Shown here piece by piece: positions 2,084-24,168 of a stretch of DNA of 64,000 bases. Position numbers and translations under genes: made by a program. Each line of letters begins with the position of its first letter. Position 1 is the stretch's first letter. The notes under the pieces were generated by a model. That model was not told the DNA's origin. It made no database searches and saw nothing but the letters and a program-made list of their open reading frames with translations. Source of the stretch: Bradyrhizobium sp. CB1650 (GTDB taxonomy: Bacteria; Pseudomonadota; Alphaproteobacteria; Rhizobiales; Xanthobacteraceae); the NCBI RefSeq assembly GCF_029761915.1, contig NZ_CP121695.1, forward strand, positions 2,075,501 through 2,139,500. Direction: 5' to 3'.

Positions 2084-2710
2084 TCAGAAGCTCGCAGCTA
2101 TTCCGGCGAGGCGTTGATGCGCCCTCTCACGGGCGGCCTCGATGGGCTGCTGCGGCCCGGTGGTTGGCCCGATCAGTACGAAACCGACGCTGTTGATGCC
2201 AATGAAGCGCAGGATCTCCCGCAGGTAGGGCGTTGCCATATCGATGCGACCGCGGTTCATTCCGGTGACGAAATCGCTGCCGCTGGCGAGGATCACCAGT
2301 GTCGGCCGGTCCTTCAGCAGCGGGAAGTATCCCTCCGAGGGGTCGAACCGAAAGGTGAGCCCGGGCTGGACGATGAGGTCGAACCACTGCTTGAGCTTGT
2401 AGGGAATGCCGAAGTTCCACATCGGCGTTGAGATCAACACCCGGTCAGCGAGCGATAAGCGTATGGCCATGCGCTCGGCCTCGGCAAAGCTGTCGCGCTG
2501 CGGATCGTTGAAGGCCTGTCCCTTCATGCGGGCGTACTTGGCCTCGACGATGGGGCCTGCGAACTCCGGCATCCGCTCCCGCCAGAGGTCGATCACGTCG
2601 ACGTCCCAATCGGGATGCGCTTGGCGAAAGGCTTCAAGGAAGGTGCGCGCGCCCGCACTCGAAGACGAGTCGGGGCGCGGCGAGCAGGACACATGCAGGA
2701 GCTTTGGCAC
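2084..2710 (-). CDS. azoR: FMN-dependent NADH-azoreductase-like flavoprotein
   Basis: 208 residues, flavodoxin-like fold, the usual AzoR length (about 200). The N-terminal S-P-R-P-D-S-S-S loop (residues 10-17) would bind the FMN phosphate. P-M-W-N-F-G-I-P at 96-103 is the family isoalloxazine-binding motif. AzoR enzymes are cytosolic two-electron NAD(P)H oxidoreductases acting on quinones and azo dyes. The start is a GTG six bases after the stop of the fusion hydrolase upstream, so it is the last gene of the long reverse-strand operon. In that setting a quinone or nitro/azo reductase role in the degradation pathway is more likely than dye reduction; this is inference. Confidence 0.85.
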   Translation of the reverse strand: MPKLLHVSCSPRPDSSSSAGARTFLEAFRQAHPDWDVDVIDLWRERMPEFAGPIVEAKYARMKGQAFNDPQRDSFAEAERMAIRLSLADRVLISTPMWNFGIPYKLKQWFDLIVQPGLTFRFDPSEGYFPLLKDRPTLVILASGSDFVTGMNRGRIDMATPYLREILRFIGINSVGFVLIGPTTGPQQPIEAARERAHQRLAGIAASF

Positions 2711-2716
2711 CGGCCG

Positions 2717-4282
2717 TCATCCCAGCGCGCTGATGACGGTATCCGCCTTGGTGACGACCGCGACGTTCTGCATGGCGAAATTGATCGAGGCGTTGTGCCA
2801 GTCGGCATTCATCGTCGAGCAGCAATCCTCGGGCACGATCATGAAGTAGCCCTTGTCCGCGCCGGTGCGAGCAGTGTGTTCGACCGACATGTTGGTCCAG
2901 GCACCGGTGTTGATGATCATGTCGCGGCCGGTGGCTTTCAGGATCGTCTCCAGCCGTGTGCCTTCCCAGGCGCTCATGCGCATCTTCTCGACCACGAAAT
3001 CGCCAGGCCGCGGCTCGAGCCCGGACACGGGCGCGGCGCCCCAGCTTCCACGCACCATCGCCTTGCTGTCGACCAATCCCTCGAACAACGGCGCGTTCAG
3101 CGTCACGCCGGGCGCGCCGGGTTCGACGACGAACCAGACATGGATGATGGCGACGCCGCGGGCCCGCGCGGTTTCCGCGAGGCGACGGACGTTCTCGACC
3201 ACATGCTGCTGGCGCGCGTGAGCCGGTGAACCGGAATCGGCAAAGGCGCCACCATCCATGATGACGTCGTTCTGGAGGTCCTGGATGATCATGGCGCAGC
3301 GATGGGGATCGAGCCGCATTTCGCCCTGGTTAAGGATCGGCGCCGCAGGCGCGACGCTCGCGCCGCCGCTGCGCGTGCCGCTCATATAGGGCTCGTGGCG
3401 CGGACCGACTTTGGTGGGGATCGCGTAAACCGAGTGGGTCGACGTGAGATAGAGCGTGCGGAAATCCGGTCCGCCCCAGGCGAGATTGGCAACAAGCTCG
3501 GGCACGCGGACCTTGCCGAGCAGTTCGCCCCTCGGCGAGTAGACCCAGACGCCGCCCGGCGCAGTGACCCAGATATTGCCGTGCTGGTCGCACTTCATGC
3601 CGTCGGGCACACCTGGCTCGAGCTCGGAGCGGATACCGCTTGCGAACACGCGTGGAGTGGCGAGCGAGCCGTCCGCATCGACGTCGAAGACACGGATCAG
3701 CGCCTGCACGGTGTCGTTGACATAGAGCAGCTTCTCGTCCGGCGAGAAGCAAAGCCCGTTCGGCTGGTCGAACAGGCTGCGATCGACCACGAGCTTGGGC
3801 TCGCCGCCGGGCACGAGGCGATAGACGCCCTGGAAGCCGAGCTGGCGCGGCCGCTCGACGCCATAGACCGGCATGCGGCCATACCAGGGATCCGAGAAAT
3901 AGATGGCGCCGGAAGAATGAACGCAGACGTCGTTCGGGCTGTTGAGCTCCTGGCCCTGGAAATGCGAGGCGAGCACCTCGCGTCGCCCGTCCGGACGTTC
4001 GCGTATCAGCGATGATGTCGCGTGCTCGCAGACGATCAGATTGAGCTCGGCATCATAGGTCATGCCGTTGCACTTGTTCGACGGGCGCTTGACCTCCACG
4101 ACGCCGCGCCGCGCATCCCAGCGCCGTCGCACGTCGCCCGGCATGTCCGAGAACAGGAGATAGTGGTCGACCGGATGCCAGATCGGCCCTTCCGTGAAGT
4201 CGAAACCGGTGCCGACCTGTGCGACCGGGGCGTACGGATCGATCAGGGCCTCGAATTCACTTCGCAACGTGACATGCGTCAT
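2717..4282 (-). CDS. SMP-30/gluconolactonase domain fused to isochorismatase-like hydrolase
   Basis: 521 residues from ATG with an AAGGA-type ribosome site; the open frame continues about 260 codons upstream, but that part is antisense to the neighbouring hydrolase. Residues 1-300 are an SMP-30/gluconolactonase beta-propeller: E31 in D-F-T-E-G-P, N115-D118 in N-S-P-N-D, and D227 in P-D-G-M-K are metal-site positions. Residues 325-521 are a cysteine-hydrolase/isochorismatase fold with I-I-Q-D-L-Q-N-D (Asp335) and V-V-E-K (Lys433). The position that is the nucleophilic Cys in nicotinamidase-type members is Ser466 here (T-N-M-S-V-E). A lactonase followed by an amide or enol-ether hydrolase in one chain suggests consecutive ring-opening steps. 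The substrate is unknown. Confidence 0.88.
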   Translation of the reverse strand: MTHVTLRSEFEALIDPYAPVAQVGTGFDFTEGPIWHPVDHYLLFSDMPGDVRRRWDARRGVVEVKRPSNKCNGMTYDAELNLIVCEHATSSLIRERPDGRREVLASHFQGQELNSPNDVCVHSSGAIYFSDPWYGRMPVYGVERPRQLGFQGVYRLVPGGEPKLVVDRSLFDQPNGLCFSPDEKLLYVNDTVQALIRVFDVDADGSLATPRVFASGIRSELEPGVPDGMKCDQHGNIWVTAPGGVWVYSPRGELLGKVRVPELVANLAWGGPDFRTLYLTSTHSVYAIPTKVGPRHEPYMSGTRSGGASVAPAAPILNQGEMRLDPHRCAMIIQDLQNDVIMDGGAFADSGSPAHARQQHVVENVRRLAETARARGVAIIHVWFVVEPGAPGVTLNAPLFEGLVDSKAMVRGSWGAAPVSGLEPRPGDFVVEKMRMSAWEGTRLETILKATGRDMIINTGAWTNMSVEHTARTGADKGYFMIVPEDCCSTMNADWHNASINFAMQNVAVVTKADTVISALG

Positions 4283-4293
4283 TCGATCGATCC

Positions 4294-5142
4294 TTAGGCC
4301 GGGAACCAGTTCCGCTGGGGCAGGGACTGGACGATTGGACCGGGCACCTGGTCGTGCAGGCGCCCGACGACATTGCCGCCCTCGATCTTGGCGGGACGAT
4401 CGTGCACGGGAAGGAGATAGCGCGAGTTGCTCAGCAGCTTCTTGATCGCCGCCTTTTCCGCACGTTTGGTGGTGCCGTGATTGCCGGTGGTGCGCGGCTC
4501 CCAATCGTGGATCTCGTTGAAAGGCGTGACGATCTGGTCGTTGAAGTCGTAGATCACATCGCCGCAGATGGTCGCGATGCCGTCGGCGGTGTGGACGATG
4601 ATGTTCATCGAGCCCTCGGTGTGGGCGTTGGCGGCGTCGCAATAGACGCCGGGCATCAGCTCGATCGGCCCCGCGACCTCGAGATCCAGGAAGCGCAGCG
4701 CGCTCCTGGTGTGCAGGCGGTCGATCAGGTGCTTGATGTCGGGTGCCGGATATTGCGGATGCATCAGGCCCGAGACGGAATATTCGAGCTCGCGGCGGTT
4801 GAGCACGACGGTCGTGTTCATTGGGAAGAGATCGTCCTTGCCGGCGTGGTCGATGTGCAAATGGGTGTGGCAGACGAAGCGGACGTCGCCCATGCGCACG
4901 CCGTGACGAGCGAGCTGGTTCTCGATCATGTTCTCGTGGTACTGCAGCCCGCGCATGCCCAGCGTTTCCATGATCTGGTTGGAGCGATAGCCGGTATCGA
5001 CCACCACCGGGTAGGGGCCGCCGAGGATCAGGAAGCCGAGGGTGAGGACGCGGCGAGTGCGGCCGCAATCACGACCGAGAACCAGAAAGCTCGATTCCAG
5101 CTCGATATCGCCATAGTCCAGGATCTTGATCTCCAGCGCCAT
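4294..5142 (-). CDS. Metallo-beta-lactamase-fold hydrolase (lactonase-like)
   Basis: 282 residues; ATG at 5142 is preceded by a strong GGAGGG site five bases upstream, which decides the start. The H-T-H-L-H-I-D-H-A-G signature at residues 92-101 supplies H94, H96, D98 and H99. A further His (A-N-A-H-T-E-G), the bridging Asp (I-C-G-D-V-I-Y-D) and the last His (P-V-H-D-R) complete a dinuclear zinc site. Length and layout resemble N-acyl-homoserine-lactonase-family proteins (AttM/AiiB type), but a quorum-quenching role is not implied. It lies 11 bases upstream of the lactonase/isochorismatase fusion, so it probably opens a lactone or ester in the same pathway. Confidence 0.85.
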   Translation of the reverse strand: MALEIKILDYGDIELESSFLVLGRDCGRTRRVLTLGFLILGGPYPVVVDTGYRSNQIMETLGMRGLQYHENMIENQLARHGVRMGDVRFVCHTHLHIDHAGKDDLFPMNTTVVLNRRELEYSVSGLMHPQYPAPDIKHLIDRLHTRSALRFLDLEVAGPIELMPGVYCDAANAHTEGSMNIIVHTADGIATICGDVIYDFNDQIVTPFNEIHDWEPRTTGNHGTTKRAEKAAIKKLLSNSRYLLPVHDRPAKIEGGNVVGRLHDQVPGPIVQSLPQRNWFPA

Positions 5143-5180
5143 TCGTATCCCTCCGTGTTCCTGCTTCTTGCCTGTGATCG

Positions 5181-6071
5181 CTACGCTCCGAGCCGGTAGA
5201 CGCGCGTCGCGGTCGCCTTGAAGATCGCGTCCTGCTGCTCCCCGCTCAACGGCGCGGCTGCCGCGCGAAACGCGCCGACGAGCTCGCGATAGCTGGTCCA
5301 CAACTTCTCGATCGGGAAATTGGAGCCGAACAGGCAGCGCTCTGCGCCGAAGATCGCCACGGTGTCGGCGAGCAGGGCGGCGATGTGCGCGGGATCGTTG
5401 CGATGGATGAAGGTGCCGAGCCCGGAGAGTTTTGAGACCACGTTCGGACATGCCGCAAGCCGGGTCATGCCGGCGCGCCAGGCAGCGCGTCCCGCCGGCG
5501 AGAGGTCTTCCAGCATCCCGGCATGCTGGAGGATGAAGGTCACCTGGGGACACGCCTCGGCAAGCGCTGCCGCATCGGGCATTTGCGGCGTGAACACCTG
5601 CAGATCGAAACTCCAGTCATAGTCGGCGAGCCGAGCGACGTTCCGGCGGATCACTGCATCGGCGCAGAGATCCGGGCGGGCTGCAAAGCGGTAGAGCGGA
5701 TTCTCGTGCCAGTGCAGTTGCATGCGCACGCCGCGCACGAGGGAATAGCGCTTCAGGCGGTCGAGCTGCGGGCGCACGTCGTCTACGGCGAAATTGGCGT
5801 AAGCGACGATCGCATGCGGCCAGCCGTGTTCATCGGCCGTCTGTTGCACCCAGGCGGCCTCGTCCTCGAAACGGTCGTTGGCCCAATTGGTCTGCACGTA
5901 GACCGAGCGGGTGACGCCGGTGCCCTTGAGGTCGTCGAGATACTCCTGGATCGGATAGTCACGCCGGATCGGCTCGTAAGGGCCGAATATCCGCGGCTGC
6001 ATCGGACCGGTCAGCCAGGGCAGGTCGGCCTGCCGCCAGATGTGATGATGCCCATCGACAATATCGGTCAC
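5181..6071 (-). CDS. Amidohydrolase (COG3618-type, pyrone-dicarboxylate/fuconolactone hydrolase-like)
   Basis: 296 residues, a TIM-barrel amidohydrolase-2 protein. D-G-H-H-H-I-W at residues 6-12 provides the first-strand histidines, L-Q-H-A-G the later His. In the last-strand motif the usual G-S-D-W-P is G-S-N-F-P, so the catalytic Asp position is Asn. Relatives hydrolyse lactones such as 2-pyrone-4,6-dicarboxylate or L-fuconolactone. The GTG start overlaps the stop of the VWA gene (GTGA), so it is part of the same operon. It is the third putative ring-opening hydrolase in a row; the substrate is unknown. Confidence 0.82.
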   Translation of the reverse strand: MTDIVDGHHHIWRQADLPWLTGPMQPRIFGPYEPIRRDYPIQEYLDDLKGTGVTRSVYVQTNWANDRFEDEAAWVQQTADEHGWPHAIVAYANFAVDDVRPQLDRLKRYSLVRGVRMQLHWHENPLYRFAARPDLCADAVIRRNVARLADYDWSFDLQVFTPQMPDAAALAEACPQVTFILQHAGMLEDLSPAGRAAWRAGMTRLAACPNVVSKLSGLGTFIHRNDPAHIAALLADTVAIFGAERCLFGSNFPIEKLWTSYRELVGAFRAAAAPLSGEQQDAIFKATATRVYRLGA

Positions 6072-7185
6072 GCCGCTCTCCTTCGCCCCAACGCCAGAAT
6101 GTGCGCGACGATCGACGCGCTCGAACCGCCATCCACGAGATCATCGACGAAGCGCTCGATGGCGATGAGCGCTTCAGTCTGCGGGCGGAAGCCGGGGCTT
6201 GTCGCGAGCGGCGTCAGCCAGCTCAAGCGCCAGGCCCGCCGCGACAATTTTGCGACTGCGTCGCGAAGAGCGTCGGGCTCGCCGCGTTCGAGTCCATCGG
6301 AGACGATGACCACGGCGGCGCCGCGCGCATAGCCACCAAATCGTGGCACCGCGAGGAACGCCTGCAGCGCGTCGCCGATACGGGTGCCGCCGTCCCAGTC
6401 GCTGACCAGATGTGCGGCGGCGTTCAATGCCTGTTCGCGGCGCTTCAGCCGCAAGGGACGGGTGACCCGGGTCAACCGCGTGCCGAAGGTGAACACCTCG
6501 ACATTGGGCGCCGCCTGCACCAGAGCATGCGCGAGCCTCATGTTCTCCTCGGTGCGGCTCTTCATCGAGCCGGAGACGTCGATCAGCAGCAGCATTTTGC
6601 GCGGTCGCTGCCGTCGCTTCAGGTGCCCCAGCCGCAGGATTTCGCCGTCGTTGCGGACAGTCTCGCGCAAGGTGCGGCGCAGATCAGCGAACGGCCCGCG
6701 CCGCGCGCGCATCCGGCGGTGAGCACGCCGGCGCGGCAGACGTCGCGATGCTTCGCGCGCCAGGCGACGCAGGGCGCCGGTGGTCGAGGTCACCGCAAAG
6801 CGGCGCTCGACCAGGGCCTCGGTTCGGGTCGCGGCCAGCCCTGACTCGTTGGCCTCGTCGGAGAGCAGAGGCTCCTCGTCGCCGCGGCCGTCTTCCTGCA
6901 GGCGCACCGTCTCGTCGTCCTCGCTCTCGCCGTCGCGCTCGATCGCCTCGCTGCCGCGGAAGTGGAGATCGAACAGGCGGTCGAAAGTGGCGCGGCGTTC
7001 CGGCGGTGGAGCCAGCGTCGCCAGGGCGGCTTGCCGGACATCCTCGATATGGCCCGGGCCGAGCAGCTCGATCGCAGCCAAAAACGTCGTCGTTTGCTCC
7101 GGCGCCACCGCAAAGCCGTTCGCGCGCAGCAGCGAAACGAAGGCGACGAAGATGCGTGCGGCGCGCGGGAGCTGCAGTTCGGTGC

Positions 7186-7189
<4 letters not shown>
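6068..7189 (-). CDS. coxE: VWA-domain protein, CoxE-type molybdenum hydroxylase maturation factor
   Basis: 373 residues. The first 190 are charged and arginine-rich (DUF58/CoxE-like N-terminal part with an acidic stretch at 83-110). The von Willebrand A domain follows, with a MIDAS D-V-S-G-S at residues 204-208. In Oligotropha CoxE works with the AAA+ protein CoxD to insert the Cu/sulfido ligand in CO dehydrogenase; related pairs accompany other molybdenum hydroxylases. The ATG overlaps the MoxR stop by four bases and its stop overlaps the amidohydrolase start. It is cytosolic, with no signal or membrane segment. Confidence 0.88.
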
Positions 7190-8067
<878 letters not shown>

Positions 8068-8077
8068 GATGAGACCT

Positions 8078-9100
8078 CTAGCGCCGTGGCTGCGGCCGCG
8101 CACCGCCCTGGGCCTTGATTGCGCGCAGCACCTTTTCGGGGGTGATCGGGAGGTCATCGATACGCACGCCGACCGCATTGAAGATCGCGTTCGCGACGGC
8201 CGGCAGCACCGGGTTGGCGCACATCTCGCCGGGACCCTTGGCACCGAATGGACCGTCGGGCGCGGGACGCTCCAGCACGGCGATATCGTGCGGGCAAATG
8301 TCGCCGGGACCGGGCATGAGATATTCGACGAAGTCGCGGGGCCCGTGCACGGGATCGGGATAATAGGGTTCGGGCGTCTCGTAGAGCGCGTGGCTGATGC
8401 CCATCCAGGCGCCGCCGACGAGCTGCTGTTCGACCAGCCGGGGGTTGAGCGCGCGGCCGAGCTCATAGGCGGAATCCATGCGCACCATCGCGACCTCGCC
8501 GGTCTCGTCATCGACCTCGACCTCGGCGACTAGGCAAGCATGGGCGTAGCAGGTCGCCGGCGACATTTCGCCGGTTTCGGGATCGACGTCGGACAGGGGG
8601 ACCAGGAAGATGCCGCGGCCGGAAATGGTCTTGCCCTGCTTGAATTGCGCGGCGATCGCGACATCCTTGGTCGAGATCGAGCGATGCGGAGCGCCTTTGA
8701 CATGGATGTTGCCGCGGCCGTCGGTCTCGAGATCGGCGGCATTGACCTCCAGCTCCTCGGCGGCAGCCTCCATCATGACGCCACGCGCCTCTCGCGCTGC
8801 GGCCATGACCGCATTGCCGACGCGGTGCGTGCCGCGCGAGGCGAACGAGCCCATGCAGTGCGGGCCGGTGTCGGAGTCAGCCGTGTCGACATAGACGTCC
8901 TCGACGGGCACGCCGAGTGTCTCGGCGCAGATCTGCCGCGTCACCGATTTCATTCCTTGGCCGAGATCGATCGACGACAATGCCACCGTGAACTTGCCGC
9001 TGGGATTGGAGTGAACCAGCGCCTGGCTGGGATCGCCGCCGAGATTCATGCCGATGGGGTAATTGATCGACGCCATGCCGCGTCCGCGATGCCTGGTCAT
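8078..9100 (-). CDS. Molybdenum hydroxylase molybdopterin subunit, C-terminal half (separate gene)
   Basis: 340 residues matching only the second molybdopterin-binding domain of xanthine dehydrogenase-family large subunits, which are normally a single chain of about 770-800 residues. It starts with R-G-R-G-M-A, the interdomain motif of the family. It has the G-Q-G-M switch-loop sequence and ends with G-A-K-G-P-G-E, where Glu292 is the catalytic base. The ATG is two bases past the TGA of the N-terminal half and has its own AAGGAGA ribosome site inside the tail of that gene. That favours two coupled polypeptides rather than a sequencing frameshift. Both halves should assemble around one Mo cofactor. 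Confidence 0.88.
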   Translation of the reverse strand: MTRHRGRGMASINYPIGMNLGGDPSQALVHSNPSGKFTVALSSIDLGQGMKSVTRQICAETLGVPVEDVYVDTADSDTGPHCMGSFASRGTHRVGNAVMAAAREARGVMMEAAAEELEVNAADLETDGRGNIHVKGAPHRSISTKDVAIAAQFKQGKTISGRGIFLVPLSDVDPETGEMSPATCYAHACLVAEVEVDDETGEVAMVRMDSAYELGRALNPRLVEQQLVGGAWMGISHALYETPEPYYPDPVHGPRDFVEYLMPGPGDICPHDIAVLERPAPDGPFGAKGPGEMCANPVLPAVANAIFNAVGVRIDDLPITPEKVLRAIKAQGGARPQPRR

Positions 9101-9101
9101 T

Positions 9102-10676
9102 TCAGCGTCTCCTTGTCCCGAACACGGAGGAGAAGCGGGTTGCGCCGTGTGACGGTGCGGGCGGGCGCGGCGGGGGAGGCGGCTCGCGGGGCGGCTCTCT
9201 CATCGCACTCGCCGGGGCGCGATCATAGGTCGTGCGCTGCTGAACGGGCGCCGCCGGCCGCGCGCGCGGCTCCGTCGGCGTCGGCGGGATCATGGCGCGG
9301 CTGCCGCCACCATCCTTCCGGGAGGAAGCGCGCCTGAACTCGTCGCGGATCGGCCACTTGGCCTTTTCGGCCGCGACCTGAACGCATTCGATCAGTGCCG
9401 TGTTCTTGGCCTCGCGCCGGTGCGCCTTCATGTCGCCGTCGCGGTAGGCATTGAGGATGCGGAACTCCATCGGGTCCATGCCGACGAGATTTGCGAGCTT
9501 GTCCATCTGGCATTCGATCGCAAAGTCCATCGCGGTGACGCCGAAGCCGCGCATTGCGGTTGCGGGCGTTCGGTTGGTGAAGACGCAGTAGACGTCGCCA
9601 TAGACGTTCGGGATGGTGTAGGGGCCCGGCAGATGCGCGGCGCATTTCACGGCGGCATAGCTCGACAGCCGCGTATAGGCACCGCTGTCGAAGTAGGCGT
9701 GGATCTTTCGCGCGACGATGCGACCGTCGCGCATCACCCCGTCCTTGATGTAGATGCGCTCGGCGCCGCGCGGCGGACCGTATTGCATCTCTTCCTCGCG
9801 CCCGAACACGTAGCGTACCGGACGCCCCGTCAGCATCGCACCTAAGATGGCGAGAGGCTCGGTCAAGGTATCCACCTTGCCGCCAAAGCCACCGCCGACG
9901 GTACCACCGATGAAGTGGAAGGTGTTGGAAGGCACGTCCAGAATCTTGGCACAGGTGTCGACCGAGAAGAACAACGCCTGCGTCGAGGTGTAGACCACAT
10001 AGCGTCCGTTGGTATCGGGCGCCGCGATCGCGCCGTTGGTTTCGGTCGGCGCGTGTTCGATCGGCGACATCTGGTAGCGCTGCTCGAGCACGTGGTCGGC
10101 GGTCGTGAGCGCCGCGTCGACATCGCCGAAGCGCAGCTTCTGATGATCGTAGACGTCGTGATAGATGAAGGCGTTCTTCGGATAGGTCTCGTTGACCACA
10201 GGCGCGCCGGGTTTCAGGGCTTCTTCGACGTCGAACACGGTCGGCAGCGGCTCGTAGTCGATCCGTACCTTCGCGATCGCTTCGAAGGCCTCGCGCTCGC
10301 TGTCGGCGACGATGGCGACGATCGGTTCGCCCTTGTAGCGCACCTTGTCCACCGCAAGCGAGGGCTCGTCGTCCTTGCCGAAGTTGATGAGGCTCAGCAG
10401 CGTATTGAGATTGCGCGGCACGTCGGCACCGCGGATGATCCGTCGCACGCCGGCCGAGCGCTCGGCCTCCGTGGTGTCGATGCGGCGGAGCCGCGCATGC
10501 GCATGCGTCGAACGGACGATCTTGAGGTGCAGCATGCCCTGGAGCTTGTGGTCGTTGAAATAGCTCGACGTGCCCGTGATGTGGCCGAGCATGTCCTGGC
10601 GCTGCGTGCCCTTGCCGATCTCCTTGAGATTGTCGTCGCGTTCGTCGGCGAAGATGTCCTTGCGTAGTTCCAGCAT
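9102..10676 (-). CDS. Molybdenum hydroxylase molybdopterin subunit, N-terminal half with Pro/Arg-rich tail
   Basis: 524 residues: the a/b-hammerhead domain (about 25-140) and the first molybdopterin-binding domain (about 150-445), including G-G-G-F-G-G-K and the active-site loop A-M-R-G-F-G. That loop is of the xanthine dehydrogenase type and lacks the A-Y-R-C-S-F-R signature of form I CO dehydrogenase. The last 75 or so residues are low-complexity, rich in Pro, Arg and Ala, and replace the normal linker to the second Mo domain, encoded by the next gene. The enzyme hydroxylates an aromatic ring, N-heterocycle or aldehyde carbon using water. It starts ten bases after the 2Fe-2S gene. Confidence 0.88.
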   Translation of the reverse strand: MLELRKDIFADERDDNLKEIGKGTQRQDMLGHITGTSSYFNDHKLQGMLHLKIVRSTHAHARLRRIDTTEAERSAGVRRIIRGADVPRNLNTLLSLINFGKDDEPSLAVDKVRYKGEPIVAIVADSEREAFEAIAKVRIDYEPLPTVFDVEEALKPGAPVVNETYPKNAFIYHDVYDHQKLRFGDVDAALTTADHVLEQRYQMSPIEHAPTETNGAIAAPDTNGRYVVYTSTQALFFSVDTCAKILDVPSNTFHFIGGTVGGGFGGKVDTLTEPLAILGAMLTGRPVRYVFGREEEMQYGPPRGAERIYIKDGVMRDGRIVARKIHAYFDSGAYTRLSSYAAVKCAAHLPGPYTIPNVYGDVYCVFTNRTPATAMRGFGVTAMDFAIECQMDKLANLVGMDPMEFRILNAYRDGDMKAHRREAKNTALIECVQVAAEKAKWPIRDEFRRASSRKDGGGSRAMIPPTPTEPRARPAAPVQQRTTYDRAPASAMREPPREPPPPPRPPAPSHGATRFSSVFGTRRR

Positions 10677-10685
10677 GATCAGGCC

Positions 10686-11162
10686 TCAGGCGCTGGCCCG
10701 GCCGCCCGTGGCGGCGAGGATGGCGTTGATGATGGGTTCGTAGCCGGTGCAGCGGCAGATATTGCCGGAGATCGCCTCGACGACCTCGTCCCGGCTCGGG
10801 GAAGGATTGCGATCGAGCAGTGCCTTTGCGGCCATCAGCATGCCCGGCGTGCAATAGCCGCATTGGGCGGCAAAATTGTCGGCGAACGCGCGCTGGAGCG
10901 GGTGCAGGTTCGGCCCCTGCTTGAGGCCGTCGAGCGTCTCGACGGAACGGCCGGCGACCGTCTCGGCGAGCGTCAGACAGGAGAGGTGGATTTCGCCGTC
11001 GATCAGCACGCTGCATGTGCCGCAGCCGCCCTGGCCACAGCCGAATTTCGGGGTCATGTCGCCGATCAGCTCGCGCAGGGCAACCAGCAGGTTGGTGCCG
11101 CCATCGACGAAGATCGCGACGTCGCGGCCGTTGTGACGAAATTGCAGGGGAGTCTTCGACAT
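10686..11162 (-). CDS. Molybdenum hydroxylase 2Fe-2S subunit (CoxS/NdhS-type)
   Basis: 158 residues, the standard size. All eight iron ligands are present: C42, C47, C50 and C62 for the plant-type ferredoxin cluster (G-C-G-Q-G-G-C-G-T-C), and C101, C104, C136 and C138 for the four-helix-bundle cluster (C-G-Y-C-T-P-G and I-C-R-C-T-G-Y). It carries electrons from the Mo centre to the FAD subunit. There is no Tat signal, so the complex is cytosolic, unlike IorAB-type enzymes. An AAGGAA ribosome site precedes the ATG. Confidence 0.95.
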   Translation of the reverse strand: MSKTPLQFRHNGRDVAIFVDGGTNLLVALRELIGDMTPKFGCGQGGCGTCSVLIDGEIHLSCLTLAETVAGRSVETLDGLKQGPNLHPLQRAFADNFAAQCGYCTPGMLMAAKALLDRNPSPSRDEVVEAISGNICRCTGYEPIINAILAATGGRASA

Positions 11163-12459: not shown

Positions 12460-12897
12460 TCAGCCTCCGAATACACGCTTCAGGGCGTCGAAACCGCCCT
12501 GGAACACGCCGCCGCCGATATTGCTGACGAGCTCGGTTTCCCTCTCGGGCGCACAGTCGAATTCCGCGGTCCATTCCATGAAGGTTTGGTCGCCGTCGGT
12601 GACCGGCGTGAGCCGCAGGGTCGCGACGTAGTTCTCGACGCCCATCGGCGATTCCAGGATCGAATAGGTACAGAACATGTCGTAGTCGGAGAGCCCCAAC
12701 AGCTTCTCGCGGATGCGATCGCCGTTGCGCAGGCGGAAATCCCTGACGCAACCGATCTTGTCGGAAGGCTCGCCGCCCTCGATGCGGCTTTCGGCGATGG
12801 CCGGATGCCAGTTCGGCAGGCCGTTGAAATCGCGCACCCGCGCCCAGACGCGGTCGTTGCGGGCGTTGACGACGGTGGAGACGTAGACGCGGGCCAT
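12460..12897 (-). CDS. SRPBCC-fold protein (CoxG/polyketide cyclase-like), copy 1
   Basis: 145 residues, ATG preceded by GAGGT. N-terminal strand, then W-H-P-A-I near residues 30-34, S-D-K-I-G-C-V-R near 45-52, and P-V-T-D-G-D followed by a W-containing strand, as in its paralogue next door. It is soluble, with a single fold domain, and is predicted to have a hydrophobic ligand cavity. It starts nine bases past the flotillin stop, so it is co-transcribed with the flotillin and hydroxylase genes. The ligand is unknown. Confidence 0.82.
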   Translation of the reverse strand: MARVYVSTVVNARNDRVWARVRDFNGLPNWHPAIAESRIEGGEPSDKIGCVRDFRLRNGDRIREKLLGLSDYDMFCTYSILESPMGVENYVATLRLTPVTDGDQTFMEWTAEFDCAPERETELVSNIGGGVFQGGFDALKRVFGG

Positions 12898-15828: not shown

Positions 15829-16662
15829 TTATCGCGCGCCGATCGCCTTGAATTGACGCACCTGATCCGTCAGCGCCCGCTCCACGGGCAGTCGCTCCAT
15901 CGAGGACGCGCCGTAGAAGCCGTGGCAATGGCGGGTGTTCTTCATGATGAAATCGGCATCGGCGGGATCCGCGATCGGACCGCCGTGAGCCAGTACCAGG
16001 ATGTCCGGATTGACGCTGAGCGCGGCGGAAGCCCAGATGTCGATATGCGCGGGACAGTCCTCGAGCTTTGGCGCAGTCTGCGCGCCGATCGTGCCGCCGG
16101 TCGTCAGACCCATGTGACAGACGATGATGTCGGCGCCGGCGATTGCCATCGCAGCGGCTTCCTTCTCGCTGAACACGTAGGGCGTGGTCAGCATGTCCTT
16201 TTCGTGCGCCTTCGCGATCATGTCGATCTCGAGCGCATAGGACATGCCGGTCTCTTCGAGATTGGCGCGGAAGGTGCCGTCGATCAGGCCGACGGTCGGA
16301 AAGTTCTGGACACCCGCAAATCCGAGCGCCTTCAACTGGTCGAGGAAGGCATCCATGTCGCGGAACGGATCCGTGCCGTTGACGCCCGCAAGCACCGGCG
16401 TCTTGCTGACCACGGGGAGCACTTCGCCGGCCATTTCGAGCACGATGGCATTGGCATCGCCGTAGGGCATCAGGCCGGCGAGCGAGCCGCGGCCGGCCAT
16501 GCGGTAGCGGCCGGAATTGTAGATGACGATGAGATCGACGCCGCCGGCCTCTTCGCATTTGGCCGACAGGCCGGTGCCGGCACCACCGCCGACGATCGGC
16601 TCGCCGCGCCGCGCCATGTCGCGAAACCGCCTCAAGAGAGCTGCGCGTTCAAACCTGGCCAT
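15829..16662 (-). CDS. TIM-barrel phosphoenolpyruvate-hydrolase-family protein (Tm-1 C-terminal-half homologue)
   Basis: 277 residues of the TIM_br_sig_trns/PEP-hydrolase-like family. It has G-A-G-T-G near residues 27-31, a [11 protein letters not shown] strand, the central G-V-N-G-T-D-P, and C-H-M-G-L-T-T-G-G with L-A-H-G-G-P near the C-terminus, which look like phosphate- and metal-site loops. In plant Tm-1-like proteins a related TIM barrel is fused behind a UPF0261 domain; here the two are adjacent genes three bases apart. The chemical reaction of this family is not well established. A catabolic role with the neighbouring UPF0261 domain is inferred from context. Confidence 0.82.
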
Positions 16663-16665: not shown

Positions 16666-18873
16666 TCACCTCGCTAGTCTTCGGCGCGCCCCGGTGCGGC
16701 CGAACAAAGTCCGGAACGCACCGACAATTGCGGCAGCGAACTCGGGATCGTTGATGTTCTTGGGAACGCGAATGAGCTGACGGTTGCCGGTCTGCCGCAT
16801 TGTGCGCTCCAGCGTGCGAAACAGCGCGGCGTCGGCGTCCGGATCCCAGAACGGTTGGCCGCGCGCATCGAGCGCGGAGACGCCGCCCTCGGGCAGCAAG
16901 AAGCGCACCGGGCCGTCCATCTGGTTGAGCCGTTCGCCGATCCAGCGGCCCATGCGCTCGTTCTCCTCGGCCGTGGTCCGCATCAACGTCACCTGCGGAT
17001 TGTGGACGTGAAACTTGCGGCCACGGTAGCGCTCGGGAATGGTCTCGGGCGCACCGAAATTGACCATGTCGAGCGCGCCGACCGAGGCGACATAGGGCAG
17101 CCGGCTACGGATGATCGCGCCGAAACGGTCTTCCGTCGCAGGAAACACGCCGCCCATGAGAAGATCGCAGACTTCGGTCGTGGTGACGTCGATGACGCCG
17201 GCGAGCTGTCCGGACTCGACGAGCTTCTCCATGGAACGGCCGCCGACGCCGGTGGCATGGAACACCAGGCATTCGAAATCGTCGCGCAAGTCGGCTGCGA
17301 TCTTCTGCACTGCCGGAGTCGTCACGCCGAACATGGTGATGCCGACCGAGGGCAGGCTGCCAGCCTCTCGCACCGTACCGGCGCGCGCATCGAGTCGCGC
17401 TTTGACCATGCCGGCGAGCGCATTGGCGCCGTTGGCCAGCACCGCGCGCGAGATCGAGTTCAGCCCCTGCACGTCGGTGACCGAATACATCATCGTGATG
17501 TCGGCAGGGCCGACATAGGGCCCGACATCGCCGGAGGCGACGGAGGAGATGATCAGCTTGGGCACCCCGACGGGCAGAGCGCGCATGCCCGGCGCGACCA
17601 GCGAAGCCGCGCCGGAGCCGCCCGCCGAAATCACGCCGGCGACATTGCCCTGGCGTCGCAGCCAGTTCGCGAACGCATCGGCCATCGCACTTACGGCGGC
17701 GCCGCGATCGGAGCCGAACACGGCCGCCCCGCCGCGGCCGTGGTTGAGAGCGATCTCCTGCGCCGAGACATCGCAGGTGGAATGCTTGCCGCCGGTCGAG
17801 ACGTCGACGAGGCGCGTGCGCAGGCCGCTTGCTGCGATGATATCGCGGATGAAACGCAGCTCGGTGCCTTTGGTGTCGAGCGTACCGACGACCAGCACGA
17901 CGGGCGGGCCCGAGGTCTGCGCCGCCGCCGGCTCGCGCTTGCGCCGCGCCGTCTCGTCGAGCCGCGCGATCTGGGTCGAGAGCGTGCGAGCTGCGGCCTC
18001 GATGCGGGCGATCGGCACCGGTTGCGACCATCGCGTCGGCGGCGTCGGGTTGGAGACGTAGATGCGGATCGGCCCGCCGGGACGCGGCGGCGCGGGTTTC
18101 GCCTCGGGGGGCGACGCGGCTATGTCGATGTCGCCTTCGAGTTCGGCGTGAAGCCCGACGCCGAGCAGGCGCTGCTGGAGCTCGCGGTCGGCGGCAAGGC
18201 GGCCGGAGTCGATGATGCGGTTGATGCGGCCGTTGACCATGATCGCGACGTTGCGCGAGACCGCGGTGGCGACGCCGATGTTCTGCTCGATCAGCAGCAC
18301 GGACATGTCGCCGTCCTCGCCGAGCTGCAGCAGCATCTCCTCGACCTGCGCCACGATGACGGGCGCAAGTCCCTCGGTCGGCTCGTCCATGATCAAAAGA
18401 TGCGGATTGGTGAGCAGCGCGCGCGAGATCGCCAGCATCTGCTGCTCACCACCGGAGAGCTGGCCGCCGCCATGATCCCTGCGCTCGGCCAGCCGCGGGA
18501 AAGTGTCGTAGATGCGCTCGACGGTCCACGCGCCCGGCCGCATCCCGCCGGCAAGCCGCAAGTGCTCGTCGACGCTGAGCGAGCGCCACAGCCTCCGTCC
18601 TTGCGGCACATAGCCGACTCCGAGCCGCGCAATGTGGGCCGGCGGCCGCCGCGTGATGTCCTCGCCGCGGACGCGGATCGATCCGCCGCTCACGCCCACC
18701 AGCCCCATGATCGCCTTGCACAGCGTGGTCTTGCCCATGCCGTTGCGGCCGACGACGGAGAACACGCCGCTTTCCAGCGCCAGGTCGACGCCCTGCAGTG
18801 CGTGTGAGTGCCCGTAGTAGACGTCGAGGCCGCGGACTTCGAGCGCGGCATTGGTGCGGCGGACCTCATTCAT
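16666..18873 (-). CDS. LivF-type ABC ATPase fused to UPF0261 (Tm-1-like ATP-binding) domain
   Basis: 735 residues. Residues 1-235 are a complete LivF-like ATPase: Walker A G-R-N-G-M-G-K-T-T (42-50), signature L-S-G-G-E-Q-Q (139-145), Walker B L-L-I-M-D-E (159-164). Residues 236-323 are a Pro/Ala-rich linker. From about 324 to 730 runs a full UPF0261/Tm-1-like domain (G-T-L-D-T-K-G-T-E near 330-338, then S-A-G-G-S-G-A-A-S and H-A-T-G-V-G-G). LivF proteins are normally about 235 residues, so the extension is a genuine fusion, with one uninterrupted frame and GGAGG before the ATG. It overlaps livG by eight bases. The fusion may couple import to handling of the imported compound. Confidence 0.9.
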   Translation of the reverse strand: MNEVRRTNAALEVRGLDVYYGHSHALQGVDLALESGVFSVVGRNGMGKTTLCKAIMGLVGVSGGSIRVRGEDITRRPPAHIARLGVGYVPQGRRLWRSLSVDEHLRLAGGMRPGAWTVERIYDTFPRLAERRDHGGGQLSGGEQQMLAISRALLTNPHLLIMDEPTEGLAPVIVAQVEEMLLQLGEDGDMSVLLIEQNIGVATAVSRNVAIMVNGRINRIIDSGRLAADRELQQRLLGVGLHAELEGDIDIAASPPEAKPAPPRPGGPIRIYVSNPTPPTRWSQPVPIARIEAAARTLSTQIARLDETARRKREPAAAQTSGPPVVLVVGTLDTKGTELRFIRDIIAASGLRTRLVDVSTGGKHSTCDVSAQEIALNHGRGGAAVFGSDRGAAVSAMADAFANWLRRQGNVAGVISAGGSGAASLVAPGMRALPVGVPKLIISSVASGDVGPYVGPADITMMYSVTDVQGLNSISRAVLANGANALAGMVKARLDARAGTVREAGSLPSVGITMFGVTTPAVQKIAADLRDDFECLVFHATGVGGRSMEKLVESGQLAGVIDVTTTEVCDLLMGGVFPATEDRFGAIIRSRLPYVASVGALDMVNFGAPETIPERYRGRKFHVHNPQVTLMRTTAEENERMGRWIGERLNQMDGPVRFLLPEGGVSALDARGQPFWDPDADAALFRTLERTMRQTGNRQLIRVPKNINDPEFAAAIVGAFRTLFGRTGARRRLAR

Positions 18874-19648
18874 GGCCGCCTCCGAGATAAAGCTCCTGCA
18901 CCTCGGGATCGGACTCGATCTCCTGCGGCAGGCCTTCCTTGAAGACGCGGCCGTTGTGCATCATCGTGACGCTCTCGACGACGCGCAAGGCGACGTCCAT
19001 GTCGTGCTCGATGATGATGTAGCCGATGTGCGCGGGCAACGAGGTCAGGATCTCGATCAGCTCCAGCCGTTCGGTCGGCGACAGGCCTGCCGCCGGCTCG
19101 TCGAACAGGACGAAGCGCGGAGCGCCGGCGAGTGCGAGCGCGATCTCGAGCTGGCGCTGCTGGCCGTGCGCGAGCTCGGCCACGCGCTGGTCCTTCACCG
19201 CAGCCAGATGCACCGCCTGCACGAGGTTGTCGGCCGCGTGCATCAGGGCATCGTTCTGCCCGGGACGCAGGAACGAGAAGCGCCCGCGCGAGACGCCACG
19301 ACAGGCGAGATAGACATTGTCCTGCACGGTGAGGCCGGGGAACAATGCCGAGATCTGATAGGTCCGGCGCAGGCCGCGGCGGATGCGTTCATGGGGCGGG
19401 AAGTGGGTGACGTCCTCGCCGAAGAAGCGGATGGTGCCGGAGGAGGGCGGGAAGTCGCCAGTGATGCAGTTGAACAGCGTAGTCTTGCCGGCGCCGTTCG
19501 AGCCGAGCACCGCGCGCCGCTCGCCGGGACGCACGGTGATGGTGACGTCGGTCAGCGCGGCGAGCGCGCCGAACAGCCGCGTCACGCCGCGCAGCTCGAG
19601 TGCGGCCCCGGCGCCGACGGCCGAGAGGCGTTGCGCGACGCTATCCAT
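18866..19648 (-). CDS. livG: Branched-chain-type ABC transporter ATPase LivG
   Basis: 260 residues from ATG at 19648 (an in-frame GTG at 19681 is possible, but would overlap livM by 41 bases instead of eight). Walker A G-S-N-G-A-G-K-T-T, Walker B F-V-L-F-D-E-P, and the H-loop in I-I-I-E-H-D-M-D are present. The ABC signature is atypical: L-A-H-G-Q-Q-R replaces the usual L-S-x-G-Q, as seen in some LivG proteins. It energises the LivHM channel together with the LivF-UPF0261 fusion. Both ends overlap their neighbours. Confidence 0.92.
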   Translation of the reverse strand: MDSVAQRLSAVGAGAALELRGVTRLFGALAALTDVTITVRPGERRAVLGSNGAGKTTLFNCITGDFPPSSGTIRFFGEDVTHFPPHERIRRGLRRTYQISALFPGLTVQDNVYLACRGVSRGRFSFLRPGQNDALMHAADNLVQAVHLAAVKDQRVAELAHGQQRQLEIALALAGAPRFVLFDEPAAGLSPTERLELIEILTSLPAHIGYIIIEHDMDVALRVVESVTMMHNGRVFKEGLPQEIESDPEVQELYLGGGHE

Positions 19649-20723
19649 GGCGGCGCCCCCCGCCGGAACGGTTGGCGTCACGGTGCTGATGCTGGCGCCA
19701 GCGCTGCCACAGGCCGATGACGCCGTCCGACGACCAGAACACGATGGCGAGGAAGCCGAGCCCGATCAGCAGCCGGAAGCGGTTGCCGTCGAGCCCGAGC
19801 TTGACCAGGAAATCGAGCGCGAAGGTGCGCAGTAGCACGAAGATCAGCGCGCCGATGAAGGGGCCGATCGGACGCGTGATGCCGCCGACGACGGCGATGA
19901 TCAGCACGTCGATGCAGGCGCCGACGCTGACCGAGCCCGGCGAGATCTGGCGGTAGTTCCAGACCTGCAGGACGCCGGCGAGCGCGGCTACGAAGGAGGC
20001 GAACGCGTAGGCTGCGACGCGATGCGCGTCGACGTTGAAGCCGAGCGCAGCCATGCGCCGCGGATTGTCGCGCACGCCCTGGAGCGCCAGGCCGAACGGT
20101 GCGCGGGAGATGTACTCGACGGCGAAGTAGCAGAGCGCGGCGACGGCGAGCACGACATAATAGAAGGGAATGTCGGCCCGCCAGTTGACGCCAAAGAAGT
20201 GCGGCGTGGCAACGTTGTTGATGCCGGTGTGGCCGTTGAAGATCGCCCAGTTCTGGTTGGTGAAATAGTAGAAGGCGGCGCCGATCGCCAGCGTGATCAT
20301 GATGGTGTAGATGCCTTCGGTGCGCACGGCGAGGGCACCGCCGAGCGTGCCGAAGGCGGTCGCCAGCGCCAGCGCCATCGGGACCGCGAGCCACCACGGC
20401 CAGCCGAGGCTGATATTGGCGTTGTCGCTGGTGCCGAACACGGCGACCATGTAGGCCGCGAAGCCCGCGATGGTGAGCTGCATCAGGCTCACCATGCCGC
20501 CGTAGCCGGCGAGGAACATCAGGCTCAGCGCCATGATGCCGAGGATCAGCGTGGTGGCGAAAATCTCGATCAGGAAGAAGCCGTTGGCGATCAGCGGCAT
20601 GATCAGGAGAATGGCCGCGACGATCCAGGCGGCGGGATTGTTGATCTCCTGCCATGCCCGGGCGGGACGTTGCGCCACGGCGGCGGGACGAACGGCAACG
20701 CGGGCGTCGTGGGCGAGCGACAT
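19641..20723 (-). CDS. livM: Branched-chain-type ABC permease LivM
   Basis: 360 residues with about nine or ten hydrophobic segments. The L-A-G-Y-G-G-M-V-S-L family motif lies near residues 71-80, and the cytosolic coupling region with R-A-P-F-G-L-A-L-Q-G-V-R-D-N-P lies near 207-221. The C-terminus is basic and Gly/Arg-rich. The ATG follows the livH stop by one base with GAGGCGATGAG ahead. It forms the heterodimeric channel with LivH. Such transporters often carry aromatic or short-chain acids and amides rather than leucine. Confidence 0.92.
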   Translation of the reverse strand: MSLAHDARVAVRPAAVAQRPARAWQEINNPAAWIVAAILLIMPLIANGFFLIEIFATTLILGIMALSLMFLAGYGGMVSLMQLTIAGFAAYMVAVFGTSDNANISLGWPWWLAVPMALALATAFGTLGGALAVRTEGIYTIMITLAIGAAFYYFTNQNWAIFNGHTGINNVATPHFFGVNWRADIPFYYVVLAVAALCYFAVEYISRAPFGLALQGVRDNPRRMAALGFNVDAHRVAAYAFASFVAALAGVLQVWNYRQISPGSVSVGACIDVLIIAVVGGITRPIGPFIGALIFVLLRTFALDFLVKLGLDGNRFRLLIGLGFLAIVFWSSDGVIGLWQRWRQHQHRDANRSGGGRRHG

Positions 20724-20724
20724 C

Positions 20725-21735: not shown

Positions 21736-21878
21736 GGCAGCCGCTCGCTGTTCACCTCACCCCGCCAGCGGGGAGAGGGAGTAGGCGGGCGGCAACGCTC
21801 CACGTCGTGCTTCGAATGCAAGTCGGACAGCCCTGCGAAGGCTGCGTACCTCGCCATGGACGTGCATCTCCCTGGGTT

Positions 21879-21901
21879 CGCGATCCTCTATCGGGATCGC
21901 G
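21879..21901. other. Perfect inverted repeat between AraC and livH genes
   Basis: CGCGATCC, a seven-base spacer, then GGATCGCG, about 145-165 bases upstream of livH. It is not followed by a T-run on either strand, so it does not look like a terminator. It could be an operator or mRNA hairpin for livH. A second GC palindrome (CCCCGC-ca-GCGGGG) lies closer to livH, around 21762-21775. Confidence 0.4.
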
Positions 21902-21965
21902 TTGGCCACATCCTAGCGAGGACACAAGGAGAGCGTTTGATCGTCAGTATCTTTTCGCGTGCCGC

Positions 21966-22793: not shown

Positions 22794-22917
22794 GCCTTCC
22801 CCTCCCGAATGTTCTTGTCTTTTCAGTCAGCGTTCAACAACCGGGAAGAGATTGCAAGAGCGGAGCGCGTCCGCGTCAGCAAGTCGCTCCCCGGTTGCGG
22901 TTTGCAAACGTGATGCG

Positions 22918-24168
22918 TCAGTACTTCTTACATTCCGGTACGGTACGGCTCGGCAGCCCGATCTTCGCGAACACCGCCGGATCGTAGCCGAGGGTCTGGT
23001 TCACGTTCGGGATCACCTTCACGACCTTGCTGAACAGCGCTCCCTTGCCGTCGTCGACGACCTCGGTGACGAAATTGGTGCCGATCGCCTGGCGGTTGGA
23101 GTCGAGCTTGATCTTGCCGTTCGGCGCGTCGAGTTCGATCTTCGCCAGCGCCGCCTTGAACTTCGACTGATTGTCGCTGAGATCGCCGTTGACCTCGCGC
23201 AGCGCGAGGATCAGCGCCATGGTCGAGCCGTAATAATTGGTGGCCAGGAGCGACGGGCTCGGGAAGCGCTTGTTGGGCGGGAAGGCGTCCTGATAGGCCT
23301 TCACGAACTTCTGCCAGCCCGGATCCTCCCAGGTGTCGGCCTGGCCGCTCGCCGCGATGGTGCCGATCAGCGCGTTCTTCGCATTGCCCTTGGACGAGAG
23401 GATGGTCTGGTCGATCATGATGGAACCGCCCATCAGATGCGCCTTGCCGCCGGCCTGCTGGTACTGGTTGAGGAAGTTGACGGCGTCAGCGCCGCCGAGG
23501 CCGAGGTAGATGGCGTCGACGTCGTCGGGCAGGGCGGCGATGACGGAGGCAAAATCCTTGGTGCCGAGCGGCACCCATTGCCGGTTCGTGACCTGTCCGC
23601 CCTGTCCGCAGAATTCGAGCACCAGGCCGAACACCTGGGTGTAGATGAAGGAATAGTCTTCGCCGACGGTTGCGATCTTGCGATAGCCCTTGGTTTCATA
23701 GGCGTATTTGCCGAGGCCCACCTGCCACTGCGCGCCGTCCATATTGTAGCGGAAGAAGTTCGGGGCAGGGTCGACATAGGTGGTTTCCTGCGCGCCGGAT
23801 GCCGCATTGATGAAGGTCAGCTCGGGATGGGTCTTGGCGAAGTTCTTCACCGCGATGCCCTCGTCGCCGGAGAGCGGCGAGAGCAGGATCTGCACCTTGT
23901 CCTGCTCGATCAGCTTGCGCACCGCCCGCACCGCCGAATCCGGCGTTGCATCGGTGGATGCGACGATGAACTCGAGCTCCTTGTTCCCGACCTTCTTGCC
24001 CAGCACGTTCAGCGCCGTCTGGTGACCGCGCATGCCGTCCTCGCCGAGCACCGTGTAGGTGCCTTCGAGCGTCGCAGTGACGCCCACTTTGATCTTTTCC
24101 TGGGCGAGTGCGGCGCCTGAAAGAAACAGGCCGCTCAGCGCGATTAGTCCCACACCACATTTCGACAT
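22918..24168 (-). CDS. Periplasmic branched-chain-type substrate-binding protein
   Basis: 416 residues from ATG at 24168, chosen because GGGAGGAG lies just upstream and a clean signal peptide follows (residues 1-22, ending A-A-L-A-Q). The open frame upstream is not coding. The mature part is a type I periplasmic binding fold (Peripla_BP_6): K-V-G-V-T-A-T-L-E-G near residues 25-34 and F-I-N-A-A-S-G-A-Q-E in the middle. It delivers the ligand to LivHM. It begins the reverse-strand operon, is separated from the AraC gene by 124 bases, and has a palindrome 170 bases upstream. Confidence 0.9.
   Translation of the reverse strand: MSKCGVGLIALSGLFLSGAALAQEKIKVGVTATLEGTYTVLGEDGMRGHQTALNVLGKKVGNKELEFIVASTDATPDSAVRAVRKLIEQDKVQILLSPLSGDEGIAVKNFAKTHPELTFINAASGAQETTYVDPAPNFFRYNMDGAQWQVGLGKYAYETKGYRKIATVGEDYSFIYTQVFGLVLEFCGQGGQVTNRQWVPLGTKDFASVIAALPDDVDAIYLGLGGADAVNFLNQYQQAGGKAHLMGGSIMIDQTILSSKGNAKNALIGTIAASGQADTWEDPGWQKFVKAYQDAFPPNKRFPSPSLLATNYYGSTMALILALREVNGDLSDNQSKFKAALAKIELDAPNGKIKLDSNRQAIGTNFVTEVVDDGKGALFSKVVKVIPNVNQTLGYDPAVFAKIGLPSRTVPECKKY

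Follow-up and report, generated by a model that had tools for sequence, protein, structure and literature searches.

A conserved Bradyrhizobium gene cluster combining a tagged molybdenum hydroxylase, a long flotillin and a Tm-1-fused importer

The 64,000-nucleotide stretch of Bradyrhizobium sp. CB1650 analyzed here (the window; contig NZ_CP121695.1, positions 2,075,501 to 2,139,500) sits in a 9.43-Mb single-contig genome whose nearest relatives bearing the gene cluster described below are Bradyrhizobium. Open reading frames and family scans delineate 20 open genes, all on the minus strand, running from 24168 to 2084. They encode a complete Liv-type importer (binding protein, two permeases, two ATPases), a long flotillin, two SRPBCC proteins, a four-subunit molybdenum (Mo) hydroxylase with putative maturation factors and a series of hydrolases. 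We propose that the Mo hydroxylase may be docked to a flotillin platform by a C-terminal tag, within a two-module, membrane-centered catabolic unit; judged from sequence comparisons, the probability of this reading is about 0.5. In the order 5' to 3' the genes and features are as follows (assigned by family match unless stated otherwise; aa, amino acids).

22918..24168, minus strand: periplasmic solute-binding protein (SBP), Liv type (Peripla_BP_6), 416 aa
21966..22793, minus strand: AraC-family regulator, 275 aa
20725..21735, minus strand: LivH permease
19641..20723, minus strand: LivM permease
18866..19648, minus strand: LivG ATPase, start codon uncertain
16666..18873, minus strand: LivF ATPase fused to a UPF0261 (Tm-1 N-terminal, ATP-binding) domain (LivF-UPF0261, g06), 735 aa, by family and structure match
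15829..16662, minus strand: Tm-1 C-terminal TIM-barrel partner (Tm1C, g07), PF09370, PEP hydrolase-like
12907..15801, minus strand: long flotillin, 964 aa, by SPFH/Band_7 and Flot domains
12460..12897, minus strand: SRPBCC1 (Polyketide_cyc2, PF10604), 145 aa
12011..12454, minus strand: SRPBCC2 (Polyketide_cyc2, PF10604), 147 aa
11190..12008, minus strand: Mo hydroxylase FAD subunit
10686..11162, minus strand: Mo hydroxylase [2Fe-2S] subunit
9102..10676, minus strand: MoL1, first half of the Mo hydroxylase large subunit, with a Pro-rich C-terminal linker
9102..9137, minus strand: C-terminal tag of MoL1, RFSSVFGTRRR, plus stop, by alignment of MoL1 ends
8078..9100, minus strand: MoL2, second half of the large subunit, its catalytic Glu loop position occupied by GAKGPGE
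7186..8067, minus strand: CoxD-like (MoxR/MadB-type) AAA ATPase, start codon uncertain
6068..7189, minus strand: CoxE-like VWA protein
5181..6071, minus strand: Amidohydro_2 protein, L-fuconolactonase-like
4294..5142, minus strand: metallo-beta-lactamase-fold (MBL) protein, weakly like AHL lactonases and 4-pyridoxolactonase
2717..4282, minus strand: SMP-30/gluconolactonase domain fused to an isochorismatase-type hydrolase (g19)
2084..2710, minus strand: flavodoxin-fold, quinone/azo reductase-like protein

Apart from the gaps between SBP and AraC (124 bp) and between AraC and LivH (230 bp), the remaining 17 junctions measure -8 to 38 bp; 16 of the 19 are at most 30 bp, counts affected by our choice of start codons for LivG and CoxD. 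An earlier note on this DNA, made from the letters alone, had described about twenty mostly tightly spaced genes on one strand, and so they are. Its gene families are broadly as named, with the Tm-1 parts (the LivF-UPF0261 fusion and the PF09370 partner) left unnamed, and the three successive hydrolases it had listed are the Amidohydro_2, MBL-fold and SMP-30-isochorismatase fusion proteins. A single operon for all genes is not supported: two relatives (L119, L121; genomes G049, G115) have SBP in inverted orientation, and SBP as well as AraC are probably transcribed as units of their own. The SBP has 4zpj as nearest solved structure, followed by 4evq and 4ey3. Scans for regulatory RNAs and tRNAs produced none that reached threshold.

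In a collection of named genomes 236 stretches encode a relative of MoL1, and the best 80 were kept. Gene order and strand are identical in 80/80 as far as the flanks were fetched, the exceptions being a differing layout upstream of LivF-UPF0261 in L038 and a lacking flavodoxin match in L047. The block also occurs in other genera of the family (L113-L123), in several other families of the class (L135-L142; L159-L160) and, in a later sample at the level of the order, in 17 loci; several of these non-genus loci are cut by contig or fetch ends. Since the 80 retained loci and those of other families share this order and strand, the clustering is not due to chance. The conservation search proposed in the earlier note thus finds the genes not scattered in relatives, and its view of one functional unit gains from an order conserved in distant families. 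MoL2 was matched at E <= 1e-120 in 149/195 genomes of the genus draw (46 were without at that threshold). At class level 8/385 genomes matched at E <= 1e-90, including the genome itself and one congener, and at phylum level 16/398 at E <= 1e-75, all labeled as the same class or nearer.

The unusual gene boundaries are conserved, too. A single match covers at least 90% of LivF-UPF0261 in 75/76 loci with a match, and likewise of SMP-30-isochorismatase in 77/77 matching Bradyrhizobium-group loci; the stop of MoL1 precedes MoL2 in 28/28 and 17/17 rows. Chance or sequencing error as the source of the split and the two fusions was rejected as the same junctions recur across loci. Three of the best 120 of 3544 MoL1 database proteins are single-chain (P0054, P0076, P0093), which runs counter to a universal split; we take them for presumed frameshift artefacts. 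Individual genes can be missing: Amidohydro_2 had no match in G157, MBL none in G543 and L219, and Tm1C none in L194, L219 and L222. In L222 about 1.8 kb (5062-6822) lie between LivF-UPF0261 and flotillin, at the expected place of Tm1C, without a Tm1C match. The flavodoxin-fold gene was seen only in the Bradyrhizobium group. Because it had no match in other genera whose downstream flank was covered, it does not look core.

The cluster comes apart into two modules. Five compact loci (G812, G912, G1060, G870, G1010) contain AraC (32-34% identity), SRPBCC1, the FAD and FeS subunits, MoL1, MoL2, CoxD, CoxE and Amidohydro_2; within the stretch covered, all five lack flotillin, LivF-UPF0261, Tm1C, SRPBCC2, MBL and SMP-30 proteins. 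For the last two of the five, L190 and L191, the 12 kb covered contain no flotillin. Neighbors of compact clusters are a sugar-type importer or binding protein, a 3-hydroxyisobutyrate-type dehydrogenase and an aldehyde dehydrogenase. Fifteen loci (L183-L187, L209-L218) carry the platform (flotillin, SRPBCC proteins and an importer whose LivF is joined to UPF0261) without this Mo hydroxylase within the stretch covered, SRPBCC1 being common to platform and compact Mo clusters. Gene order differs in L187, and L218 is a variant with a different order and no SRPBCC2 match; Tm1C was not matched in L209, L212 and L213. SRPBCC2 of platform-alone loci has 484-524 aa, and in both proteins scanned (L184, L209) it is fused to a zinc-binding dehydrogenase. 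Among the neighbors scanned in L183, L184, L185 and L187 are proteins of the FAA hydrolase, alpha/beta hydrolase and Amidohydro_1 families. A distant Mo hydroxylase, 32% identical, adjoins the platform in L186; it has a single-chain large subunit and lies on the opposite strand (4147-6894).

The second, order-level sample was drawn by LivF-UPF0261. Among 279 genomes searched 79 matched, 48 of them over the full length; 30 of the 48 and one shorter match (G1137) were fetched. These 31 loci comprise 17 with the Mo hydroxylase, nine without, the variant L218, two with no flotillin in the stretch and two cut by contig ends. As the platform occurs without this Mo hydroxylase (15 loci) and the Mo hydroxylase with no platform next to it (5 loci), the cluster is a platform with an exchangeable payload. 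Pairwise likeness between the platform types compared to that within the full type (platform plus enzyme) was 0.75 vs 0.76 for Tm1C, 0.68 vs 0.74 for LivF and 0.55 vs 0.69 for the C-terminal part of flotillin. Because Tm1C is nearly as alike between as within types, a common compound class is suggested.

Full-type MoL1 proteins extend past the enzyme body by a Pro/Ala/Arg-rich linker of about 60-130 aa which terminates in RFSSxxGxRRR. This tag was found in 107 of 108 full-type loci (the window, 80 named, 10 others and 17 others), using a pattern widened to take in the variants of the second sample; the remaining locus, L016, is truncated where its contig ends. Of the 108, the three loci L029, L046 and L068 do not extend far enough on the flotillin side to include that gene. 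The tag is absent in 5/5 compact loci and in 3/3 nearer and 3/3 farther outgroup rows. The strict pattern occurs in 104 of the best 120 of 3544 MoL1 database proteins; the other 16 are, by eye, variants, truncated or frameshifted, three being fused to MoL2. In 66 pairs from 12 representatives, identity was 0.88 in the tag, 0.71 in the MoL1 body and 0.46 in the linker. When 28 full-type loci were compared, the 11 C-terminal residues of MoL1 had 75% pairwise identity, the highest of 18 proteins (the other 17: 12-63%; g19 and g20 were left out because of too few rows). At the DNA level 62 different versions exist among 90 tags. The linker start has a motif as well, Gly-rich and less strict than the tag, with R..[IVL]P after it, in 10/12 representatives, counted by eye.

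The flotillin is built from an N-terminal hydrophobic segment, an SPFH domain, a coil of about 600 aa and a Flot domain. The coil has a period of 44 residues: its autocorrelation reaches 0.33 at that lag, and 14 of the 15 strongest lags are divisible by 11. Flotillin length varies with the payload. Flotillins of the Bradyrhizobium group have 917-975 aa (76 loci) and full-type flotillins of other genera 865-1165 aa (11 + 17 loci), a range that also holds for four Bradyrhizobium-group loci measured together with the first 11; those of platform-alone loci have 532-744 aa (15 loci), with no overlap with full-type lengths. The difference consists of 44-residue coil repeats. The length split held in every classifiable locus of the second sample (17 with and 10 without the enzyme), which had been drawn after the pattern had been seen. 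Two genomes, G812 and G870, hold an untagged compact Mo cluster and, elsewhere, a platform with a short flotillin (L209 and L213, respectively); therefore, the tag tracks the linked long flotillin and not any flotillin in the genome. Two database proteins with fused flotillin, P0123 and P0133, were set aside as apparent frameshift artefacts.

Could the cluster be a catabolic operon of the ordinary kind, with flotillin as passenger or general membrane organizer and linked by co-inheritance only? Flotillins are widespread, and two others examined, of 583 and 591 aa (L188, L189), stand amid no other cluster genes. Against this, flotillin length follows the payload, and the gene is located directly before SRPBCC1 in most platform loci of several families (order differs in L218; L204 and L206 have none). 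We consider this explanation quite improbable. The earlier note had placed the hydroxylase at a membrane platform; a probable link to the flotillin platform is now backed by more evidence, and the docking as such we infer.

The tag would reach its partner via an arm which, from its composition, is probably disordered. The arrangement might be compared to encapsulin-like cargo loading, where a conserved terminal peptide on a flexible linker binds the shell; here, peptide and linker are present and binding is putative. No description of a client-recruitment peptide for flotillins turned up in the literature listing. Like the SPFH cages, i.e. HflK/C around FtsH and mammalian flotillin, the protein combines SPFH, long coil and Flot domain. 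Unlike those, it is tied to one catabolic cluster, and its coil of about 600 aa compares with 186 aa in the mammalian flotillin cage (PMC11260169). The same paper describes that HflK/C cages can enclose proteases, a precedent for an enzyme inside an SPFH cage. In a proteomic study (PMC11996625), a flotillin, though not necessarily this one, is reported to vary between fractions of B. diazoefficiens. Family scans detected no NfeD among the 20 cluster genes, a further difference. NfeD is the partner gene in flotillin-NfeD operons.

Several observations weigh against docking at the flotillin. In the second sample the strict tag is present in 11/17 loci, the six variants keeping only RF and RRR. 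Two loci (L204, L206) have the importer and a Tm-1 part with no flotillin within the stretch covered. Tm1C had no match in 6/26 platform loci (3/17 with and 3/9 without the enzyme); hence the Tm-1 pair is not invariably present. In a midpoint-rooted tree of MoL1 bodies the full-type proteins form one clade (98/97), adjacent to the compact clade (100/100); so the tag was probably gained once and then kept through large divergence. The co-occurrence of tag and long flotillin is one evolutionary event. With a single gain the assignment of a partner for the putative binding is made by co-occurrence; fused importer and SRPBCC2 co-occur with the tag just as flotillin does. Class-specific columns, compared in 22 full-type and 12 other loci, point out no binding surface on flotillin (1/320 and 2/128, i.e. 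3/448 in its ends). Finally, the RRR codons contain the Shine-Dalgarno-like core of the ribosome-binding site for MoL2 in 104/107 tagged loci, which is a real alternative constraint on those three residues.

The last point bears on the idea that the MoL1 tail is an assembly or translation device, joining MoL1 to MoL2 or coupling MoL2 translation, and does not dock at all. Its position at the MoL1/MoL2 junction would fit. Yet the tail is absent from the compact and outgroup split enzymes and from the 425-aa chain of nicotinate dehydrogenase; RFSS precedes the ribosome-binding site and stays conserved although several codons are used for it; and L135, L141 and L221 retain RRR without the core inside. 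Such a device therefore strikes us as improbable. L206 (5488-7405), where importer and Tm-1 part lead up to a dienelactone hydrolase after Tm1C and the stretch covered has no flotillin, possibly represents the simplest form of the platform.

A somewhat better case can be made that the tag docks elsewhere, i.e. at SRPBCC2, at the LivF-UPF0261 importer complex or at an acidic membrane surface, and that flotillin is long for another reason. Besides the equal co-occurrence, SRPBCC2 of the other platform type carries a covalently attached oxidoreductase in both proteins scanned, and a short, aromatic and basic tag could suit an acidic membrane directly. However, SRPBCC2 fusion aside, flotillin alone among the measured platform proteins varies in length with the payload. 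Class-specific residues were dropped as a pointer to the receiver: near none were seen in the platform proteins compared except in SBP (8/391), and with 0/138 for SRPBCC2 against 3/448 for flotillin, sequence does not decide between the two. Docking elsewhere is thus possible, although we doubt it. Tm1C, Amidohydro_2 and MBL are unlikely receivers because they are missing in some tagged loci, as listed above. The coil is lengthened only when the Mo hydroxylase is present; for this reason we favor the long flotillin as the likeliest receiver, with SRPBCC2 as second candidate.

The Mo hydroxylase predicted in the earlier note is present, with its large subunit encoded by two genes (9102-10676 and 8078-9100). 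Both halves have nicotinate dehydrogenase, 3hrd, as best PDB match, which we take to be NdhFSLM of Eubacterium barkeri, and the chains divide at the same place, the MoCoBD_1/MoCoBD_2 boundary. By sequence the enzyme belongs to the split nicotinate-dehydrogenase type. Unlike MoL1, the 425-aa large chain of nicotinate dehydrogenase stops before arm and tag, and that enzyme is not known to have a flotillin or Tm-1 partner. GAKGPGE of MoL2 aligns with GAKGVGE of 3hrd_B, so the catalytic Glu loop is present; its Glu is presumably the catalytic residue. In CoxL the active-site loop is Cys-Ser-Phe-Arg. The alignment to 8uem_A has no Cys at that loop. Like the cox cluster of Mo-CO dehydrogenase, the present one has CoxD-like AAA, CoxE-like VWA and small SRPBCC genes beside a Mo hydroxylase; it differs by the absence of a recognized CoxF gene and of a CoxL-type Cys loop, by the split large subunit and by SRPBCC proteins outside the COXG family. 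The earlier note had called these proteins CoxG-like. Neither matches the COXG family; only PF10604 was hit, a domain which nearly fills the 145 and 147 aa, the membrane anchor of CoxG is not seen either, and the likeness probably holds at fold level only. An AlphaFold model of SRPBCC1 had a mean pLDDT of 62, from a narrow alignment.

In the importer, the UPF0261 part of LivF-UPF0261 matches the tomato Tm-1 structures 3wry and 9mpy, and Tm1C matches 2p10 (Mll9387) with E 2.4e-120. UPF0261 and PF09370 domains are adjacent in the window. As in plant Tm-1 (PMC5028733), both halves occur together, fused in the plant and adjacent here; unlike in Tm-1/UPF0261 plus TBST proteins, the N-terminal half forms one protein with the ATPase of an ABC importer. 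The term 'ABC transporter' occurs 0 times in PMC5028733. The genome has a second, unfused UPF0261 and PF09370 pair near another Liv-type importer (L147, C1:8012000-8029000), 36-38% identical to g06 and g07.

What might be degraded? The earlier note had favored an N-heterocycle or pyrone, and nothing found here fixes it. Import of an N-heterocycle, its hydroxylation and subsequent lactone or amide ring opening would be compatible with docking. Nicotinate dehydrogenase is the nearest solved relative of both large-subunit halves, the isochorismatase-type domain resembles RutB and biuret hydrolase, and the MBL protein weakly resembles 4-pyridoxolactonase. On the other hand, of the four hydrolase domains three look more like lactonases than amidases, and compact clusters, which adjoin a gene for a sugar-type binding protein or for an aldehyde dehydrogenase, fit lactol or aldehyde oxidation equally well. 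We regard this N-heterocycle pathway as unlikely, if less so than a flotillin passenger or a tail that does not dock. Naming a substrate by homology was abandoned because every NCBIfam match of these enzymes, Mo hydroxylase subunits and hydrolases alike, fell far short of its equivalog cut-off, and the neighbors of compact clusters were too varied to decide.

Elsewhere in the window we noted an unrelated DMSO-reductase-family molybdoenzyme at 25064-27385 (plus strand, opposite to the cluster); its start and that of SBP are about 900 bp apart. A 607-aa protein with two BPD_transp_2 stretches, an apparent LivH-LivM fusion (39724-41547, plus), adjoins an SBP gene (38512-39669). Further genes encode a luciferase-like monooxygenase after an NlpA lipoprotein gene (36096-37205, plus) and a NicO nickel transporter (43433-44488, plus).

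In the proposed mechanism the platform would consist of the Liv importer with LivF-UPF0261, usually a separate Tm1C, flotillin and the SRPBCC proteins; the payload would be the four-subunit Mo hydroxylase, CoxD/CoxE-type maturation factors and lactonase- or amidase-type hydrolases. As UPF0261 is fused to the importer ATPase and Tm1C is adjacent, the importer-bound Tm-1 domain, usually with Tm1C, probably acts first on the imported compound in an ATP-dependent step at the membrane. The Mo hydroxylase would oxidize the product second, and the hydrolases would open the ring last. The Mo hydroxylase would be matured by the CoxD/CoxE-type proteins, by analogy with Mo-CO dehydrogenase (PMC4240915). 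The putatively disordered Pro-rich arm with RFSSxxGxRRR would hold the enzyme at the platform. SRPBCC proteins may ferry a hydrophobic ligand, substrate or quinone, between enzyme and membrane; PMC13240472, citing Kropp 2025, reports that CoxG binds menaquinone and hands electrons to the quinone pool. More speculatively, and doubtful at present, flotillin might form a dedicated membrane-attached compartment loaded with Mo hydroxylase via the tag, its coil lengthened by 44-residue repeats to fit and its substrate delivered by the Tm-1-fused importer; the SRPBCC-dehydrogenase payload would then mark a reusable bacterial metabolic scaffold.

Flotillin and the Tm-1 parts are clear members of known families. 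What is new is the set of genes brought together, the fusion of LivF to UPF0261 in such a context and, most notably, the tag and a flotillin length that follow the presence of one enzyme on a reusable platform. The earlier note knew of no described pathway with this gene set, and our searches of the open-licence PMC literature found none either, nor anything joining CoxG with flotillin, or an operon of flotillin, xanthine dehydrogenase and ABC transporter, or anything on 'Tm-1-like ATP-binding'. Flotillins are known as scaffolds. If our reading is correct, the docking tag would be a new way of holding a metabolic enzyme at the membrane, and the natural three-way contrast of platform with enzyme, platform alone and enzyme alone yields an 11-residue docking candidate. 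Moreover, Tm-1/UPF0261, a little-understood family, would be linked to substrate import, which could help to explain its role in bacteria.

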